Positions 3,073-37,059 of a stretch of 64,000 nt of DNA are shown one piece after another. Position numbers and translations under genes: made by a program. This stretch comes from Cornus controversa (lineage: Eukaryota > Streptophyta > Magnoliopsida > Cornales > Cornaceae), in contig CM048853.1 in the NCBI GenBank assembly GCA_026545225.1, positions 54,517,755 to 54,581,754 on the forward strand. The letters run 5' to 3'. A model generated the notes under the pieces. It was not told where the DNA came from and did not search any database. It saw only the letters and a list, made by a program, of their open reading frames with translations. How positions within the stretch are numbered: position 1 is the first letter of the stretch; each line of letters starts with the position of its first letter.

Positions 3073-4480
3073 TTATTGTTGGCTTGTTATTAATTTGGAA
3101 ATAATATGGATCACACATATTATTCTTGTAAAGCCTTGGAATTCCTTTTAATTTTTAATTGTAATTAATTATGTTTTAATTGTGATAAACCATGAGAAAT
3201 TGGTTTAAATATGTGTTTTGTACATGATGGAATTTTTTTAGAAATTTTTGGATTCGGGTGTAGAACCCAGGAAGAGTCGGATGACTCGGAAGACTCCTAC
3301 GAGTCTTGGGAATCTATATAAGGGTGTATATGAATAATTGAGGGACTTAAAAGATAAGTTAGAAAAAAATATGTTAGTATGTGATTAGTAGAGAGTTAAT
3401 AATAATAATGAGCAAATTAAAAGAAAGAGAATAACTTAGTTGCAAAGATAGTAAATATATATAGAGTCAGTATCATTTATTTCACTCCAAATACCATATT
3501 TTCTTTCATCTCTTATCCCTCTCTCTCTACAACTTCATTCCAACTTCTCTCTATAAATTAGATGGATTAAAGTGAGATTTGAAGATTGCTCTAAAAGGAA
3601 AGATTGTTCCCCTCATCATTCTCTTCGATTTGATCGGTTCGAAGTTCAATTTGGTGGAGTTTGAAGAAATGGGCAAAAATTAGGGTTTGGATTTGGAGAT
3701 AGCTCAAGAAGAGAAAATTGTTCTCCTTGCTATGATCTATACTTCTACGGTTTGACTTTAGAAGAAATTGAAGATTTGGTGATTTTGGGCTTTTCAAAAT
3801 TTAAGCTTGGAATTGGGGTAGGCGTGTTCTCTCCACCTTATCATCGATTCACTAGGAATTGATGTTGATTTCGGATTGTTTAGCATGTTTAGTAGTGCTA
3901 GGAAGTGGTAATTGTGACTCTTGCATCTTTTCTTATACTTATACTTATCAATTGAATCTTCACATAATAATTATGATGTGCATTGATGTTATATATAAAT
4001 ATCTTATTGAATTTGTTGATGGAAAGTATGTTGGTACATGTGTTAATGTGAGTTATTCATGTGAATTATGTTTACATGCCATTTATACTAGAAATTGAGG
4101 ATACTTATTGCTCGTTAGACTGATTTATAGTTGTGGAGACTATGTCATACATGTCGCACGTCACATATTTGATAAAATGCATATGAATGTTCTTTTTTAG
4201 AAAAGGTAGGGAGCAAGAAATATGAGGGAGAAGTAGAGTTAGAGAAAGATAGAGATAGAACAATATTCCAAAGAATATTGTGAAAGAGAGATAAATTGTT
4301 GTAGATGCAATGTCTGTGAAATAGTTGTGGAACCCTTTACTAAAGCTCATATTACACTTATTTATAGAAGAGAGTTAACAACTTTCCAAAGAACATGAAA
4401 CAAAATAAAAATAAAAAATAACTAAATAAAGAAGATAAAAACATGATGTCAAAGTCGTTTTAGACTCACTTCTTTTCCAC
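3073..4480. other. AT-rich non-genic region, possible old LTR remnant
   Basis: No coding exon is recognisable. A TATA-like stretch (CTATATAAGG near 3313-3322) is followed by a CT-rich leader-like segment (3500-3560) and a moderately coding-like stretch (3570-3860), which could be a decayed LTR-retrotransposon end. This is a weak inference. The 4200-4450 part shows nothing beyond AT-rich sequence. Confidence 0.25.
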
Positions 4481-6450
4481 ACCTCTATTTTTAGTGAAAA
4501 AGATATGTTCGTCCATTCTCATGTCAATCAAATCACATTTAAATTCTTTCGACACTCAAAGCCTTAATCCAAGCTTTGGCCAAAACTCTGAAGTTAGAGT
4601 AAGTTTGGGCTCCCTTCTTTCCAACACCTTTATTTTAATGAAAAAGATATAGTCGTTCATTCTAGTGTCAATCAGATCATATTTTAATACTTTTGACACT
4701 TGACCATTTGATTAATTATTCAATTAAAATCCACATTCCACAATAGGATGGATCTTTGTTAAGTGCTAATTCCAAATTAATTCTCAAATGATTCAAAAAA
4801 AACTTTGATGTTGTTTAGAACTAAATTAAACTAAAAATAGAAAGACAAGTAAACCAAAGTAATGAATTCTAATGAGAAATGATTCTAGGGATATTACTTC
4901 ACCACAATCTCCTTACTATTGGCCAATTTGACAATAAAATGAAGGAATTTCAATTCAAGAACACATCATTGGATGACTACAAGCTCAAATAATGAAATTA
5001 GAAACATGCATTCCAATTAAGCTAAATGTTATTCATCTTAAGAGGGCATGACTTGTCTACCTACACTAATTAACACTAATCTAAACTAAATTATAGCACA
5101 AATCATCTCTCATTGGCATGAATTATCAAAGTCGTAATTATAATGTTCAATTCAAACCCTAATTGCATGATTCTTTCTAATTGAACTACAAAAATAACTA
5201 AAAAATGAAGAATAACCATAATTCATTGCATATATTATAAGATTGAAATTCAATTGAGATTGTATTTATAGAATTGAGCACAATAATTCAAGTACAACTA
5301 CTATATCTAATCATGCAATCCGTCTTGAGTACAAAAACTCTCAATTTTAATACAAATGGATCAATAGAAAAGGGAGAAAGAATGTTACAACATCCCTAGA
5401 AGACGTGTCTAACTTTTCATAGATGATTGAATTTCCATCTTCAAGGTGAAATTTTCAATTTCCATGGCCATCCAAGCTCTCAAGAGGTCCAAAATTGCCT
5501 AAAATCAACCACAATTCAGAAAATTCAATGCAGAGTTTGCCAAATGAAGAGTGAGAGAGAGATTTAAGTGAGCTCTCAGGGGCAAGGGCAACCAATCGCC
5601 CTTCACCTGATGCAAGGGTCTAATTTGGACCTTTGTTGGCCCATTTTTGATCTGTTGGACCTTTTTGAACCTTTTTGGACATTTTCTGACCTTTTTCTTC
5701 TTTGGACCTTCGAATTAGCTTGCTTTACGGATGGAACCCAACTCTCTTCAATATACTTCTTCAATTAAAGCCCAGTTTGTAATAATTTGAAAGAAATTAG
5801 CGACAAGACCCTGAAAATCAAATAAAATATAATTCAATATTAAAAGTATAAAAGAAGCGTTACTAAGAGATTAAAATATCCAATTATGAGGGCTTGAATG
5901 TAAAACATTCGGTACTCATCAACACTCAAAGCCTCAATCCAAGCTTTGCCCAAAACTCTAAAGTCGGTGTCATTTTGGACTCCTTTTTTTTTTCCACTCA
6001 CTTCATTCTCACACTTTTATTTTTTAGTGAAAAAGAGATGCTCGTCTATTCTTGTGTCAATTGAATCGAAATTGGAAACCCTTAACCCATAACCCAAAAT
6101 TTGAACCCCAAATATGATCCGATTGACACAAGAATAGACAACCATCTATTTTTCACTAAAATAAAGGTGTTGGAAAGAAGGGAGCCCAAACTTACTCTAA
6201 CTTCAGAGTTTTGGCCAAAGTTTGGATTGAGGTTTTAAGTGTCGAAAGAATTTAAATGTGATCCGATTGACAGAAGAATGGATGAGCATTGCTTTTTCAT
6301 TATAATAAAGGTGTGGGAAAGAAAGGAGTCCAAAATGACACCGACTTTGGAATAGTGGGCAAAGCTTGGATAGAGGACTTGAGTGTCAAAAGTATTCAAA
6401 TTTGATCTGATTGACACGAGAATAGATGAGCATCTCTTTTCACTAAAAAT
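4480..6450. repeat. foldback-like array of inverted repeats
   Basis: A unit containing 'CACTAAAA(A)TAAAGGTGT' and 'ACACAAGAATAGA' occurs in one orientation at about 4480-4700 and 5925-6075, and in the opposite orientation at about 6110-6450. The last two meet head to head near 6085-6105. Repeated marks are the words CTTTGGCCAAAACTCTGAAG and GGGCTCCCTTCTTTCCAAC and their reverse complements. The 4700-5920 segment between the arms is AT-rich with no gene and may be a loop or a later insertion. The class of element is not identified. Confidence 0.65.
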
Positions 6451-7861: not shown

Positions 7862-8440
7862 AAGATAATACTTGTATCAAAAATTACTCTGACACCCCCC
7901 GAGATTTGGTTTAACTCAGCCTAACACCCCTTTTTACCACACTACCATTCTTCTTTACTTTTTTTGTTTTCTTTTTCCTTCTCTCTTTTCTCACCTTTTC
8001 TCCTCTACCTATTATCCCTTTTCTTCTCTCATTTACTGGGGATATAAATTTGAAATGTTATTTTGTAAATTCTTATATATTATTATTATTATTATTATAT
8101 AGACACAATAATATACATATATATAAAAATATACACAGTAACTTATATATAGAAATATACACAATAACATACATATAAAAATATACACAATAATGATATA
8201 TAAAAAAATATATATAATATAATAATATATAAGAATATACAAAACAACATTATAAATTTATATCTCCAGTTAAATAGAGAGGGAAAATGGTTAAAAGGTA
8301 GAGAGAGATAAAGGTGTGACGAGAGAAGGAAAGAGAAAACTAGAAAAAAAAAAGTAAAGAAGGGTAGTTTGGGCAGAAAGGGGTGTTAGCGCTAGTTAAA
8401 CCAAAGTGTCAGAGCAATTTTTGACACAAGTGAAAAAGTA
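7862..8440. mobile_element. MITE-like element with long inverted arms
   Basis: The left arm (about 7862-8090) and right arm (about 8215-8440) are inverted copies over some 220 bp. Both contain TCAAAAATT(A/G)CTCTGACAC, GGTTTAACT, CTAACACCCCTTT and a CT-rich stretch, and run inward to ATATAAATTT. The short centre is a decayed tandem repeat based on AATATACACAATAA. There is no coding capacity. The structure fits a non-autonomous foldback or MITE, but the superfamily is not resolved because no clean terminal motif or target duplication is seen. Confidence 0.75.
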
Positions 8441-31800: not shown

Positions 31801-34800
31801 AGTTTAACTACTGTTATTTAATTCCAATAAATTATTTATCTAACTATGTAACTAATAATTTATTTAACAAAATATGTAATTAATAATAAACTATGTAGAA
31901 TAAATAATAATTTATTATGAATTAAAAATAATTTAACATAATTAATAATTTATTAAACCAACTATGAAGCATAAACTAAAGCCAAACCATAAACACCGAA
32001 ACCCAAAAACCCGAAACCCGAAAACCTAAATAAATTATTAATAAAACCTAAACCCCAAACTCGAAATAAAAAACCATGAAACCCCAATCTCGCAACACCT
32101 AAACCCACACCCTGGGCAGCATATATAATAATATATTATTAAATACAAACTATGCATAATAAATAATAATTAATAATTTGTTCAACAAATATCTAATAAA
32201 ACTATGTATCATTAATAACAAATATATAATTAAAAACTATATAGCGTAAATAATAATTTATTCAACAAATATCTAATTAATAATAAATTATATTACATAA
32301 ATAATAATTTATTTAACAAAATATGAAACTAATAGTATGTAAAACAGACTATGTAACAAATAATAAACCCTAAACCCTAAATTCAAACCCGAAATTCAAA
32401 ACCACGAAACTCCAATCTCGCAACCCAAGCCCCACACCCTAGGCAGCATAAATAATAATATAATATTAAATACGAACTATTTAAAATAAATAATAATTAA
32501 TTTAAAAATGTATAATTTATCACAAATAACTATTTTATTATGTATTATAAACTGTGTAACATAAATAATAATTTATTTAATCAAGTAATTAATATTTAAC
32601 TATGTAGCATAAATAATAATTTATTTAACCAAGTAATTAATATTCAACTATGTAGCAAAAATAATCATTCATTCAAAAAATATCCAATAATCAATGTAGC
32701 ATAAATGATAATTTTTTTAACAAACTATATAAATAATAATGAACTATGAAGTATGCTTAAATAATAAATTATTTAACTAACTATCACTAATGAACTATGT
32801 AGCTTAAATAAAATTTATTCAACAAATTATATAATTAATAATAAACTATGTAGCATAAAAAATAATTTATTATATATTCAAAACTATTTAACATAAATAA
32901 TAATTTATTTAACCAACTATGCAACTAATAATGAAGTATGTAGCATAAATAATAAATTATTTAACAAACTGTATCATAAATAATAATTTAGTTTACAAAC
33001 AATGCATTTAACTGACTATCTTACCTAATGTATATTCCCTAATAAATAAAAGGATAAATTTAGTTTATAATATGTTTGAGATGTTGTATTATTTTTTAAT
33101 ATTTGAGATTATAATATATATTTTACAACAACAGATAAAAGTAAGGAGAATAGCGATCATGATGACAATATAATACACATTTGACCCCGGAGAGAAAGAG
33201 TTCCCTCTTTGGTTCTTTCCCTTCCCTCTCTTCCCCTCTACCACAGGAACAAAATGCTTTCTATTTATCCTCCTTTTCTTCCTCCCTCTTCCTTCTTTCC
33301 ATATTTCCTCCCTCTTTGTTTCTCATGCGTTATTGAAGTTATGTAATACCTTTAAGGTAACCTATAAAATATCTTTTAGTTAGGAACCATCAGAATTCCT
33401 TTTTTTCCTTTTTATCAGGCTTGGCATCAACACACCACCTTCAATCATAAGCAGTTATTTATAGTCATAACATTCAAGAAGCAAGTATTGACAATGGCAT
33501 GTGCTTATTACATTAATCATCGTCCTGAATAACTATAATACATCAGGGCAAAGATCAGCAAAAAAATAATCAAGATAAACTGGTTAGTAAAGATATAGAA
33601 AAACTCCATACCTTTATCTCACTAACTGCTTGCTTCCTTGACGATGGTGAGAACCTATTAACATATATCACCTAATGACGGAAATAAGAGAAAGCATGAC
33701 TCTTATGTCGATTAATTTATTAAATTCAAAAGCAAACTAAATCTGAAAATTATTGGTATTAATTTACTGAAATAGAACATATCTAAATATATAACCTAGC
33801 ATATGCAAAAAGCTTCATAATATTGTATGGGGATATAAGATTACCTGCATTGCTCTGATAATGGTTCCAACAAAGGGCATGGAATCATGAGACTCAGATG
33901 CAACAATAGTAGGAAATAATTCATAGAAAAAGAAAATAGGTTCAATGTATGACACATGATTAGATACAACTATAGGAGCAGTCTCCCTTGGAGCAGGTCT
34001 TCCTCTTCGTTTTATCCAATGATAGCTGCAACATCCCAAAAAAATATTCTATTTAAATTATTTTGAGTGAATGCAAAAGGAGATTTTTAACAAGCCATAA
34101 CCTCATGCACTTCAACAAACTTGGTTGATTTAAGATAAATATTCTTAAATACAAATATATAGAAATTGAAAAGGGAAAGTTGGATAAGACAAATTTTAAC
34201 ATAATGCCAACAAAAAGGGGATTAACATACTTCAAATAAATCCACCAAATAAAATTCCAACCAATTGGAGTTAGGAACACAAATCTATTCTCGTTGCTCA
34301 ACCAAATCTTAGGATTCATATTCACAAATGGGGTTGGCTTCATGAATGTTCAGCGAAATTTCAGGATCTATGTATTGTAAGGAGGGAGTAATTATTAAGT
34401 ATCCTGGGGATTCCATATTTATAGGAATCCCACCAATAGTAAACATCTATTCCACACAATTTTAGGAGATAATATGAAATAGAGAGTTCTAGTGGTGGGA
34501 TTCCCCCCATACACGGAGTCCCGGTGGTATTCAATAATTTTCCGTAAGGAGGGATTCTAAAAAGGTTCACTATTTGTGTAACGCCCCACCCTGTCCCGAC
34601 ACAATATTGTCCGCTTTTGGTTCCCCCGGACCAGAGACTTCCCAGGGGGTCACCCATCCTGGTACTACTCCCAGCTAAGCACGCTTAACTGTGGAGTTCT
34701 GGTGGGTTCACAACCATCACGGCTTTAAAACGCGTTGTGTCATAGAAGGGTGATAATCATACATATAATACTTCCCCATTCCACACCCAGGCGATGTGGG

Positions 34801-37059
34801 ATTGAGCACCCTGTAGCCTGCCAGTGTGGTAGCTCGCCCAGTGTCTCGCACCCGTCCACATCACACCCGCCCACAAGGGTCACCACAATTCAGGCCTCCT
34901 AGAGGGGTGGATTGTGTTGACCCTTGTGGGCGGGTGTGATGTGGGCGGGTGCGAGACACTGGGCGAGCTACCACACTGGCAGGCTACAGGGTGCTCAATC
35001 CCACATCGCCTGGGTGTGGAATGGGGAAGTATTATATGTATGATTATCACCCTTCTATGACACAACGCGTTTTAAAGCCGTGATGGTTGTGAACCCACCA
35101 GAACTCCACAGTTAAGCGTGCTTAGCTGGGAGTAGTACCAGGATGGGTGACCCCCTGGGAAGTCTCTGGTCCGGGGGAACCAAAAGCGGACAATATTGTG
35201 TCGGGATAGGGTGGGGCGTTACAATTTGTCTACTTATTAAAACCCTCCTACACTAACACTAAGCAAAACATGCAAAGGACCAAAGGTTAAAACTTGAGCA
35301 TTAATTATCTAAAGATTTTTAACATGCAAAAATTATTAAAATTTTAATAAAATTTGGGTATTTTTCCTTCAAAAAATCGTCATAACTTTTTCCAAAAAAT
35401 CTTATGAGCATAATATTTTCTATAGAAATGCTGCAAAATGAAAGCAAGTGTTTTTATAATTTATATATCTCTCTCCATCACGAGGGCTTTTTTTGTTAGA
35501 AAATTCAGTTCTTGCCTCTTGGGTAATCAAAATGGCAAATTCTAGCTTAATATGCCCAGAATAATAAAAAATAAATAACTCCTCGTAATAGCAACTACAT
35601 GAATTTTAAAAATAAAATGGAACAACTTAAGAAATTAAAACCCAAACAAAAAATCCCAATTTTTAAGAAATGAAAATTAGTGTTTTGACACAAAAATCCA
35701 TCATATTGAAAATCACATGTATGGAATAGCAATGACAAAATTTGATTATAATGAAAAAAGTCACTGCCGGTTGCATTTAAAAAAAAAAATTAAAAGGAAA
35801 AAGAAAAAGAAGAATTAATGAAGTTCACACTAAAGGTTTGAATGAAATTTTATTGGCCTTTTGTGTTGGGTAAGTGGAAAGCGGGAAAGGGAAAATGCTG
35901 GTAAATAAAATTTCAACCAATATCCCAAAAAAAAATTGGGGAATGAAGGATTGCAGAAGAATGAATGATGAAAAAAATGGTAAATAAAAAAAATCCTTCA
36001 TTCCCTATTTTATCACAAAAAACATGGTGGTATTCATGAAATACTAAAATAAGATCATAAATCCCAGCAACTCCGTCATTTTCCTGAAGTTAATGAGGTT
36101 CCATGACAGTTCCAGACAGTATCGGTGTAATTGTTATCTAATTTCCAGAACTAATCTCATACAAAATTCTAGAGGTTTCAAAAAAGTTACCACTTACCAG
36201 ACTGGACTGGTTTTACCACTTGAATTCCACCAAGCAGACTCAATACCATTACTTCTCCCTCAAACAAGGTAAGTCAATTTATTGCTATAGGTTTATAATT
36301 AAAACCAACAATAATCAATATAACAAGACCATGGTGGTTACAGTTTTCTTGGAAATTGAAAGAAAAGGATGATGATCAAGTTAGCGTAGGTGTTTAGTTA
36401 AGTTGTTAGTCTCTAGATATTTTCTCCACAGCCCATAATACCCGCAATTTACAACCAAGACAATACAATTGTAGCAGTTTCATAGTTCAATGACCAAATA
36501 AGAAACAATCTAAAATCTCTGTCTCTCTCACACACACACACATGTGCACATACATACATACATATATAGAGTATTTATTGCAACTACAAACTTACCCAAA
36601 ACAGAAGAGGATGCACCGGGTACAAATCCGGGTAATCCACATGATCCTACACCTCCATCTAGGCATTGGGTTCTGCCTATCCTTCCAACCCTGAAGAGCA
36701 AACTTGGTGGCCACATACCCGACCAATAAACACAACGCGAATAACACGAGGCGTATCAAAGCAATGGGCAGGCATATCACCATCTTCAACCACTCATAAA
36801 CCCCTTCGATCCTCGGCGTCTGGTTCCGAAACGGGTCTACGGTGGTCGAACCTGCCACGGCGAACCCACGGGCCCCAATAAACTCAAATGGGTTCTCAAT
36901 CTCCAAATGGTAATTATTCTCAAGTTGTTGAGGAGTCGATACGTCGAGAGATTCAGAATCTGATTCGTCATCGACGGTCAAGATCACTTGGGCTTCATCG
37001 GGCGACTGAGAGAAGCGGTCTGAGGGCAATAGAGGACTGACAACATCGTGTTCCGCCAT
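10851..37059 (-). CDS. LPEAT2: lysophospholipid acyltransferase LPEAT2 (EF-hand type), 14 exons, complete
   Basis: Exons, in transcript order: 37059-36596, 34025-33845, 33671-33612, 28582-28419, 28328-28265, 26891-26823, 25582-25487, 24080-24036, 20295-20225, 18288-18222, 17687-17637, 11404-11294, 11195-11148, 11003-10851. All joins keep frame with GT-AG sites, giving 547 aa. The remembered Arabidopsis homologue is of similar size. The protein re-acylates lysophosphatidylethanolamine and related lysolipids at ER-type membranes. It shows an acidic N-terminus, a membrane segment at about 93-118, acyltransferase motif I NHVSYIE (177-183, Glu where the general family has Asp), the FPEGTTTNG motif (EGT 251-253) and C-terminal EF-hand-like loops. 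The last loop (506-517, [12 protein letters not shown]) is canonical. The loop at 470-481 (DVGREN) has lost acidic ligands. The start is the first in-frame ATG of exon 1. Confidence 0.95.
11473..12128. mobile_element. non-autonomous hAT-type element
   Basis: Inverted termini are TAGGGGTGCAACTTGGGT on the left and the reverse complement of TAGGGCTGCAACTCGGGC on the right. An exact 8-bp direct repeat TATATAAT flanks them (11465-11472 and 12129-12136), the length typical of hAT insertions. The interior is rich in AACCCGA and TTAGGGTTGAG words and has no transposase. It lies in the intron between exons 11 and 12 of the LPEAT2-like gene. Confidence 0.9.
12405..12830 (-). mobile_element. RTE-type LINE fragment (3' end, internally deleted)
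   Basis: The minus strand encodes the LINE block containing [13 protein letters not shown] and [13 protein letters not shown], matching the copies at 29.7 and 55.5 kb. A match to the [10 protein letters not shown] region lies near 12,680-12,720. The element then jumps to the 3' end (CATGTGGCCGACTCC...) and a (GAT)n tail near 12,405-12,425. It is broken by stops and a deletion. Confidence 0.8.
13050..13560 (-). mobile_element. second RTE-type LINE 3' fragment
   Basis: On the minus strand this gives decayed versions of the late LINE region: AEMRMLRWM-like sequence near 13,390-13,410, RLRWFGHV-like near 13,265-13,300, and the end motif AAGTAGTTGGGAAAAGG near 13,060-13,080. It covers a later part of the element than the middle of the 12.4-12.8 kb fragment, so these are two insertions, not one. 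Confidence 0.7.
13690..14760 (+). pseudogene. gene-like fragment of unknown origin, frameshifted
   Basis: Within an LPEAT2 intron this stretch has coding-like composition on the plus strand. Readable pieces include [17 protein letters not shown] (from about 13,775), then [34 protein letters not shown] (to about 14,125) and [18 protein letters not shown] (14,675-14,735). They lie in changing frames with stops between. They look like parts of a normal cellular protein copied into this place, possibly a processed pseudogene or a captured transcript. I do not recognise the parent. Confidence 0.4.
15554..15674. repeat. small inverted repeat
   Basis: CCTGGGGGTACCGAGAATGT (about 15,556-15,575) and its near complement around GTACTACATAGTAGGTACCC (about 15,643-15,662) could form a hairpin of about 120 bp. 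The surrounding 14.8-16 kb shows no gene. The 15,690-15,960 part resembles a LINE 3' end only loosely. Confidence 0.4.
18470..19131. repeat. tandem duplication in an LPEAT2 intron, period about 385 bp
   Basis: Segments at about 18,470-18,760 and 18,855-19,131 align. They share GTCTACAT(T/C)TTCAGTCC, AAGTAAAAGTG(G/A)CAATTTC, TGAACCCACATA, AAAGTTCAGTATAA, AGATTGTCCAG-type sequence and AATCACAAGAA. Several substitutions separate them, so the duplication is not recent. The second copy is interrupted by the TRIM element at 19,132. Confidence 0.75.
19132..19318 (+). mobile_element. TRIM retrotransposon, short copy
   Basis: It starts TGTTGAAGGATTTAAACATT and carries the same LTR as the element at 29,655 (AAAGTTACACCCTCTCTAAC, then AGAGTAGATGGTTGTTA at the far end). 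The exact 5-bp repeat ATGAG flanks it (19127-19131 and 19319-19323). Internal sequence (AGGTCTTGTGTTCAAATC, ACTAAAATTGAAACAAGTG) matches the other copy. The left LTR is near complete and the right one is shortened. No protein is encoded. Confidence 0.85.
20887..22232 (+). mobile_element. solo LTR, 1346 bp
   Basis: It begins TGTGACG, ends CTACTCACA and is flanked by the exact 5-bp repeat AATTG (20882-20886 and 22233-22237). Sequence across the flanks continues the host repeat, showing a clean insertion. Inside are a TATA-like CTATAAATACAC near 21,516-21,527 and a C-run plus TTCTCGGTTTTAATC near the 3' end, as in many Ty1/copia LTRs. There is no internal region or second LTR, so it is a recombined solo LTR. 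Orientation is inferred from the TATA and C-run. Confidence 0.9.
21230..21385. promoter_or_regulatory. array of GGACCGGTCC palindromes in the solo LTR
   Basis: Six near-copies of TTGGACCGGTCCAA or its variants occur within about 150 bp (near 21,225, 21,248, 21,298, 21,320, 21,345 and 21,369), upstream of the TATA-like box at about 21,516. Regular spacing and self-complementarity suggest protein-binding sites in the U3 part of the LTR. This is an inference; no factor is known to me for this motif. Confidence 0.5.
23476..23712. mobile_element. Stowaway-like MITE
   Basis: The left end is ATCCCTCCATCCCAAAATAA and the right end has GGACACTTATTTTGG followed by a distal AACAAAGGGAG. These are the familiar CTCCCTCC...GGGAG termini of plant Tc1/mariner MITEs. 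A TA dinucleotide borders each side (23474-23475, 23713-23714). It is about 237 bp, non-coding, and lies in the intron between exons 8 and 9 of the LPEAT2-like gene. Confidence 0.8.
25790..26320 (+). mobile_element. LTR fragment, copia-like
   Basis: The segment from about 26,100 to 26,315 reads like a copia R-U5 region: TTCTTCTCTAACTTTATAAT, CCGTGGACGTAGGTAGGCC, CCAAACCACATTAAATCTTG and an end at CTTTGTCAACA. The upstream part to about 25,790 is probably U3. I found no matching target repeat, so limits are approximate and it may be truncated. Confidence 0.55.
29655..30828 (+). mobile_element. TRIM retrotransposon interrupted by a LINE
   Basis: The right LTR is 73 bp (30,756-30,828, TGTTAAAAG...GGCTAACA). 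The left LTR has its first about 50 bp at 29,655-29,704 and its remainder at about 30,608-30,652. A primer-binding site TGGTATCAGAGCC (30,653-30,665) follows. The short interior has no gene. The exact 5-bp repeat CCATG borders the whole (29650-29654 and 30829-30833). The TRIM class (very short LTRs, no coding) fits all of these. Confidence 0.92.
29705..30607 (+). mobile_element. RTE-type LINE 3' fragment with RT motif
   Basis: It carries the end of a non-LTR reverse transcriptase: [13 protein letters not shown] with the catalytic FADD (about 29,800-29,840), then [35 protein letters not shown], one stop, [17 protein letters not shown] and RLRWFGHV. It ends with GCCGACCCCAAGTAATTGGG and a (GTT)n tail at 30,593-30,607. 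The 5' part is missing, as is usual for target-primed insertion. A diverged 15-20 bp duplication of TRIM LTR sequence (CCCTCTCTAACAACTTC against CACTCTCTAATAACTCAA) flanks it. Confidence 0.88.
31790..33010. repeat. AT-rich minisatellite with two C-rich blocks
   Basis: A decayed tandem array built on words such as ACTATGTAGCATAAATAATA and ATTTATTTAACAAACTATG, repeated dozens of times at about 50-65 bp. Two related C-rich blocks (about 31,990-32,125 and 32,367-32,455) share CACCCT(G/A)GGCAGCATA, CCAATCTCGCAAC and AAACCC words. The array lies in the intron between exons 2 and 3 of the LPEAT2-like gene. There is no coding potential. Confidence 0.8.
34630..34707 (-). ncRNA. 5S rRNA-like segment in the left arm
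   Basis: This is the reverse complement of the right-arm 5S-like block, with the same box A and box C words. Two divergent Pol III-type internal promoters therefore point away from the palindrome centre. Confidence 0.78.
35093..35170 (+). ncRNA. 5S rRNA-like segment in the right arm
   Basis: This matches the middle and 3' part of plant 5S rRNA, including CAGAACTCCACAGTTAAGCG, GAGTAGTACCAGGATGGGTG and CCCTGGGAAGT. The Pol III box A (AGTTAAGCGTGC) and box C (GGATGGGTGACC) regions are present. The usual plant GGGCGAGAGT reads AGCTGGGAGT. The 5' third of 5S is absent. It is a Cassandra LTR part, not a true 5S gene. Whether it is transcribed cannot be told. Confidence 0.8.

Follow-up and report, generated by a model that had tools for sequence, protein, structure and literature searches.

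Head-to-head Cassandra insertions with U5 at both ends in the genome of Cornus controversa: candidate products of aberrant reverse transcription

Described Cassandra arrays and composite TRIM insertions

The closest described systems are the Cassandra TRIM arrays of PMC7215508. According to the available sections of that paper, these elements carry 5S A- and C-boxes in the LTR, a TGGTATCAGAGC primer site, a small non-coding internal domain, and a 5-bp target repeat, and they form tandem LTR-internal-LTR arrays; all of these characters are shared by the elements analyzed here. The arrays in those sections run head-to-tail, whereas the arrays described below turn round and bear U5 at both ends. 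Where the word "inverted" appears there, it refers to PCR primers.

An inverted TRIM has a precedent in maize. In the part of the article available to us, Gao et al. 2016 (PMC4717578) described one inverted pair of SMART elements enclosed by a single 5-bp target repeat, an arrangement that was verified there by PCR and sequencing; given this precedent, the inverted TRIM form is not wholly new. The maize case is, however, a single example from another TRIM, for which that part neither states an orientation rule nor analyzes the junction or offers a mechanism. The complex insertions of the Triticeae (PMC1950507) are similar in that a composite lies within one 5-bp target repeat and template switching during reverse transcription was proposed, but as far as the accessible text goes they differ in containing three LTRs and two cores; the terms inverted, opposite, and palindrom do not occur in the main text. 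Likewise, inverted, palindrom, and head-to-head do not occur in the text of PMC10853983. Our literature search, the coverage of which was incomplete for Cassandra papers, found no report of head-to-head Cassandra insertions.

Anatomy of the palindromic unit

The window analyzed is a stretch of 64,000 nt (C9:54517755-54581754). The ordinary Cassandra element of this genome was defined by direct copies with target repeats (L020, L022, and L025), in which an LTR of ~311 bp (TGTGGTGACCC...GGGGCGTTACA) is followed by AATGGTATCAGAGC, with a ~68-bp internal domain that terminates in a polypurine tract, and then by a second LTR. The repeat unit is 380 bp long, and the longest perfect palindrome within it is ACAATATTGT (10 bp). 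A longer LTR variant (L016, L035, L037, L021, and L008) contains an extra ~142-bp segment that looks tRNA-like and a second copy of ACAATATTGT; no match at threshold was obtained for this variant by ARAGORN (L016, L035) or Rfam (L016, L037).

In the window, a palindrome of 647 nt (34577-35223, corresponding to C9:54552331-54552977) is composed of two arms of 322 nt each (34577-34898 and 34902-35223) separated by a 3-nt loop. The arms differ by six mismatches, four of which fall within their inner 16 nt. The original prediction of inverted arms of about 320 bp with few differences, a single ATTTG repeat round the whole, and non-complementary flanks was confirmed in all three respects; the flanks are also unrelated to each other. 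ATTTG is absent from the centre of the unit and the single repeat encloses both arms, so that a target repeat belonging to each arm, which would mark two separate LTR insertions, was not found. This single repeat also supports the earlier proposal that the unit entered as one DNA, perhaps from self-primed or intermolecular reverse transcription.

Because the direct copies fix the limits of the LTR, the arms can be recognized as two LTRs joined head to head, each of them complete and accompanied by a short piece of the internal domain. The unit is bounded on either side by an LTR 3' (U5) end, and the 25 bp between the LTRs are remnants of the internal domain from the polypurine-tract side. The features are compiled in Table 1.

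Table 1. Features of the head-to-head Cassandra insertion (positions in the window)
Feature	Position	Strand	Basis
Target site repeat ATTTG, left copy	34572..34576	.	Flank comparison
Cassandra LTR, 311 bp, U5 outward (TGTAACGCC... on + strand)	34577..34887	-	LTR boundaries as in direct copies flanked by target repeats (e.g. L020)
ACAATATTGT palindrome, left copy; turning point at other loci (L038, L042)	34601..34610	.	
5S-like sequence, left arm	34625..34722	-	RF00001 33.2 bits, below gathering score; box query match 34690 (-)
Centre: internal domain from the polypurine-tract side, ~5 nt contributed by the left arm and ~20 nt by the right	34888..34912	.	
Cassandra LTR, 311 bp, U5 outward (...GGCGTTACA)	34913..35223	+	
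5S-like sequence, right arm	35078..35175	+	RF00001 33.2 bits, below gathering score; box query match 35110 (+)
ACAATATTGT palindrome, right copy	35190..35199	.	
Target site repeat ATTTG, right copy	35224..35228	.	Flank comparison

The 5S-like sequences of both arms face outward (E 7e-5, under the gathering score of 38), and the Rfam scan of the window gave nothing at gathering score. The 5S-derived A-box and C-box lie inside the LTR in both arms, where the corresponding part of the published Cassandra query (PMC7215508) matches. In the direct copies L020, L022, L025, and L032 the boxes are followed by the TGGTATCAGAGC primer site, whereas the window unit is devoid of the TGGTATCAGAGC-bearing part of the internal domain, so that the full published query finds no match there. 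Similarly, its two LTRs are inverted, whereas those of its close relatives in the same genome are direct. The 5-bp target repeat is present. The window unit derives from Cassandra but departs from the standard form.

The fold of the 647-nt strand was calculated at -700.5 kcal/mol, compared to a mean of -236 for 20 shuffles. Matches to miRNA precursors at the centre (MIR169, MIR4228, mir-2329, and mir-3117) were rejected, as they lie far under their gathering scores and reflect the hairpin; a tRNA gene search across the window found none. It had also been suggested that transcripts from one arm could pair with those of the other. Reasoning from the anatomy argues against this, since the predicted internal promoters of the two arms face outward and would transcribe the same strand of the LTR, and the arm transcripts would therefore be nearly identical and not complementary. 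Self-folding would be possible only for a transcript through the whole unit.

Two further repeats were observed in the window. The left flank of the insertion (34397-34545) is part of a separate high-copy repeat with inner inverted repeats (matches ≤94%). An imperfect 500-bp palindrome at 7905-8405, 76.6% complementary and with ends near TCTGACACC/GTGTCAGA, resembles a foldback or MITE-type element and is unrelated to Cassandra.

Recurrence across the genome

One assembly of 771.7 Mb in 61 contigs was searched. The window unit gave at least 262 matches, and the matches listed were grouped into a first set of 40 places (L006-L045). This set comprised 17 head-to-head insertions with U5 at both ends, 15 direct copies (U3/U5), eight partial or chimeric places, and no U3/U3 insertion. 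An exact 5-bp target repeat was found at 14 of the 17 head-to-head insertions, and 14 of the 15 direct copies had a target repeat. The head-to-head insertions L008 and L042 exhibited no matching repeat, which counts against an origin by switching during reverse transcription, while L009 gains the repeat CAATG, a motif repeated nearby, if a divergent left LTR is included. As these 40 loci are scored matches to a palindromic query, the share of inverted loci among them is biased, and contig C1 provides a less biased sample.

A 35-mer of the U5 end had 295 exact matches (131 on the plus and 164 on the minus strand), compared to zero for a reversed-pattern control. The C1 sample was drawn from the first 100 of these in coordinate order and consisted of 25 clusters, of which 24 were examined (C1:84024589 was left out). 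Five were head-to-head, 11 direct, four solo LTRs, and four partial or chimeric (L045, L046, L057, and L061); head-to-head insertions thus made up 5 of 16 complete insertions. Each of the five is enclosed by a target repeat (L007 ATAAC, L048 ATGCT, L050 AATCC, L056 TAGCT, and the left array of L062 ATATA), as are 10 of the 11 direct insertions, L052 being the exception.

Three more places were chosen for opposing strands. Two of these, L066 (CGTAC) and L067 (ATCTG), are head-to-head. The third, L065, exhibits two inversions inside one repeat (TAGTC) and ends in U5 and U3; in this region (L065:1049-2194, near C2:71749948) the order is U5 - + - U3, with one turn at ACAATATTGT. Among the other loci on C2, L063 contained no match to the unit exceeding 93%, and L064 holds a direct copy.

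Altogether, 62 loci (40 + 19 + 3) yielded 23 head-to-head insertions, 21 of which have an exact 5-bp target repeat, all 21 different, with L009 counted only by virtue of its divergent left LTR. Recurrence with different target repeats had been set beforehand as a test of mobility, and 20 head-to-head insertions other than that in the window, each with a different repeat, were found.

At L062, two neighbouring arrays (278-2307 and 4435-5501) contain a mixture of two Cassandra LTR subfamilies. The right array also turns from minus to plus; it runs off the fetched stretch and was left out of the count. A tail-to-tail interpretation of L062 was rejected, as both arrays turn from minus to plus and the left one lies within its repeat ATATA.

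Insertions with U3 at both ends were not found among the 62 loci examined. Genome-wide, 98 outward-facing U3 ends matched exactly without a preceding T, and none of them could be paired with another outward end at a distance of up to 10 kb. For U5, 123 outward-facing ends matched exactly without a following A; among the first 100 of these there were nine outward pairs, seven of them firm or likely. One of the nine, at C3:769342, lies in L042, whose LTR is followed by a G that may belong to a variant primer site, and the members of a pair on C6 are 8 kb apart; of the remaining seven, six correspond to examined loci and one is C3:15469435. The pairs C3:15469435-15470340 and C6:750743-758910 are possible further head-to-head insertions. 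Nine same-strand outward U3 ends were observed within ~55 kb at C8:12577138-12632530, probably a duplicated array, and LTR elements repeated head to tail were observed at C14:919423-954571 and C6:3309725-3325751, with spacings of ~5221 and ~7838 bp.

At five loci, a sequence made of the two flanks and a single copy of the repeat could be aligned across the join with adjacent satellite monomers, which represent the empty site. Among the matches listed, the alignments are gapless for L014 (500/500 nt, 98.2%), L018 (500 nt, 95.6%), L019 (500 nt, 96.6%), and L035 (498 nt, 96.2%); that of L037 covers 388 nt at 95.4% with one gap column. For the window locus, a genome search for an empty site spanning the join found none, because the left flank belongs to a separate high-copy repeat. 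Ten loci (L010, L014, L018, L019, L035, L037, L042, L043, L050, and L067) are sited in tandem satellite with monomers of ~0.7-0.9 kb. The satellite location of many Cassandra insertions possibly reflects a target preference or better survival there.

Junctions, mixed templates, and the origin of the insertions

The junctions, arm lengths, and numbers of LTRs vary among the loci examined, and most of the 20 mapped junctions fall inside the LTR or the internal domain. Turns free of any loop were found at ACACAATATTGTGT / CCCGACACAATATTGTGTCGGG, the ACAATATTGT motif (L038 and L042), and at GGGCGCCC / TTTGGGCGCCCAAA (L037), while L019 turns at AGCTAAGC-AC-GCTTAGCT. Switches at microhomologies were placed by eye at L016 (ACCACA), L011 (CCAGG), L018 (ACC), and L056 (GGA). 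Several others share only 0-2 nt and resemble random joins, 16% of which are expected to share at least 2 nt; this counts against reverse transcription. Among 18 mapped junctions without long filler, seven are symmetric within 8 nt, compared to 0.8 expected (P 7e-6; the set did not include L037, L050, or L062, and manually assigned positions were used for L006 and L014). When the ACAATATTGT palindrome was considered alone, breakpoints fell near it at 4 of 20 loci, which is not a significant excess (P 0.09). A significant excess was obtained for right arms beginning at u222-242 (5 of 20, P 0.004), a region chosen only after inspection of the data.

In LTR retrotransposons, minus-strand DNA begins at the primer site, and its 5' end is consequently always the U5 end. 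We consider it probable, at roughly 75%, that the window unit is a two-U5-ended Cassandra cDNA that arose by aberrant reverse transcription and was inserted by an integrase. Judged from the anatomy of the insertions, minus-strand synthesis would proceed in a virus-like particle until the growing 3' end pairs with a minus strand, either its own (snap-back) or a co-packaged one, through a self-complementary sequence or a short stretch of microhomology. Copying of the switched strand to its 5' end would give a double-stranded product with U5 at both termini, for which neither plus-strand priming nor the second strand transfer would be needed. The integrase could insert this product with the usual 5-bp target repeat, a U3 end not being required. 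In the window, a switch adjoining the polypurine tract, placed by eye near 34892/34893, would have produced two complete LTRs head to head.

Minus-strand switching predicts U5 at both ends, and switching of the plus strand would yield insertions bounded by U3 on either side, of which no case was met among the loci examined. Furthermore, switching of the minus strand would account for the orientation, the target repeats, the unequal arms, the varied junctions, the double inversion, the subfamily mixtures, and the gypsy inserts. The turn from plus to minus in L065 is counted against this explanation; it indicates that switching in the opposite direction can occur inside one insertion.

Several insertions combine sequences of different origin. 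L009 and the left array of L062 contain two LTR subfamilies, with ends GGGGCGTTACA versus GGGGTATTACA. Between the arms of L021 lies a Ty3/gypsy pol segment of ~351 bp in minus-strand direction, which is found at 39 other places among 40 scored matches and exhibits weak chromodomain and SH3 matches under the Pfam cut-offs. Its entry point is the 8-nt CGGGGACG, common to the Cassandra internal domain and the end of gypsy pol. One such gypsy unit, L068, contains a ~2.76-kb LTR that ends in GGGGCGTGACA; TGGTATCAGAGC and a leader come next. Fragments resembling this leader were found in L048 and L050 and also adjoining the Cassandra LTRs of L024, L045, and L046; leaders and LTRs of these gypsy-like pieces are only 79-87% identical, and the pieces may not be of one family. 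Cassandra is joined to gypsy-like ends in L010 and L012, the latter with the target repeat AAACT and a short reversed gypsy-like U5 end on the left, and taken together there are six loci (L010, L012, L024, L027, L045, and L046) at which a gypsy-like leader, LTR end, or primer site is joined to a Cassandra LTR. The gypsy pieces point to co-packaging and to a candidate helper, which may be the source of the reverse transcriptase and integrase. The accessible part of PMC10886601 (2024) states that nothing indicates which autonomous family is responsible for Cassandra.

The main rival to minus-strand switching is the joining of two co-integrated cDNAs, each inserted by its U5 end into one target, with the free far ends linked by host end joining. 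One 5-bp repeat, unequal arms, microhomology, and filler would all result from this route; L007, where two complete U3 ends are joined with one extra base, also fits the ligation of two finished cDNAs, and L048 contains 283 bp of other sequence between its arms. However, end joining predicts U3-U3 pairs as well, none of which were met, and mostly full-length arms, whereas most mapped junctions are internal. The loop-free palindrome turns and the minus-direction gypsy segment also fit reverse transcription better, and we regard end joining as unlikely.

A later inverted duplication or inversion between tandem copies at the DNA level, following an ordinary insertion, could draw on tandem arrays, which are present here (e.g., L028) and known for Cassandra from the available sections of PMC7215508; it predicts one U3 end and no target repeat enclosing two U5 ends, whereas every one of the 23 counted insertions has U5 at both ends and a target repeat accompanies 21 of them, making this origin very improbable. 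Still less credence is given to a separate foldback or MITE-like family transposing as a palindrome, which the original prediction had offered as an alternative: inverted terminal arms, 5-bp target repeats, and more than 20 loci would suit such a family, but junctions and arm composition differ by locus, the arms are LTR and internal pieces of a direct element of the same genome, and the same unit with the same junction at unlinked sites was not found among the loci examined, a subset of the 295 sites. The insertions look like independent products of ordinary Cassandra. Palindromic chimeras are a known kind of sequencing artefact, and an inverted-read or assembly chimera is equally far-fetched here, as the flanks are unrelated, the target repeats exact, other sites differ in junction and flank, and satellite monomers provide the empty site at five loci.

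The head-to-head units are best read, on the evidence of their structure, as a recurrent aberrant route of Cassandra replication and not as a separate foldback family. More tentatively, and at somewhat less than even odds, palindromic integration by U5 alone might be a standing alternative life cycle of Cassandra, in which minus strands would cross-prime at palindromes or microhomologies and Ty3/gypsy elements with a matching primer site and similar U5 would provide the carrier particles. If true, this would account for the share of head-to-head units among the complete insertions of C1.

The study of EVD in Arabidopsis (PMC11624286), based on short-insert reads, likewise considered close head-to-head LTRs as a possible source of hairpin RNA and sought a silencing trigger; it differs in that, in the sections available, no close opposing LTR pair and only one antisense nested insertion were found. 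The insertions described here suggest that minus-to-minus strand switching is not only a dead end and that its products integrate at a rate sufficient to supply a sizeable share of the insertions of a TRIM family. On this reading, their junctions preserve a natural archive of the errors that reverse transcription makes in a plant, and closely spaced head-to-head LTRs would be ready sources of hairpin RNA if transcribed through.
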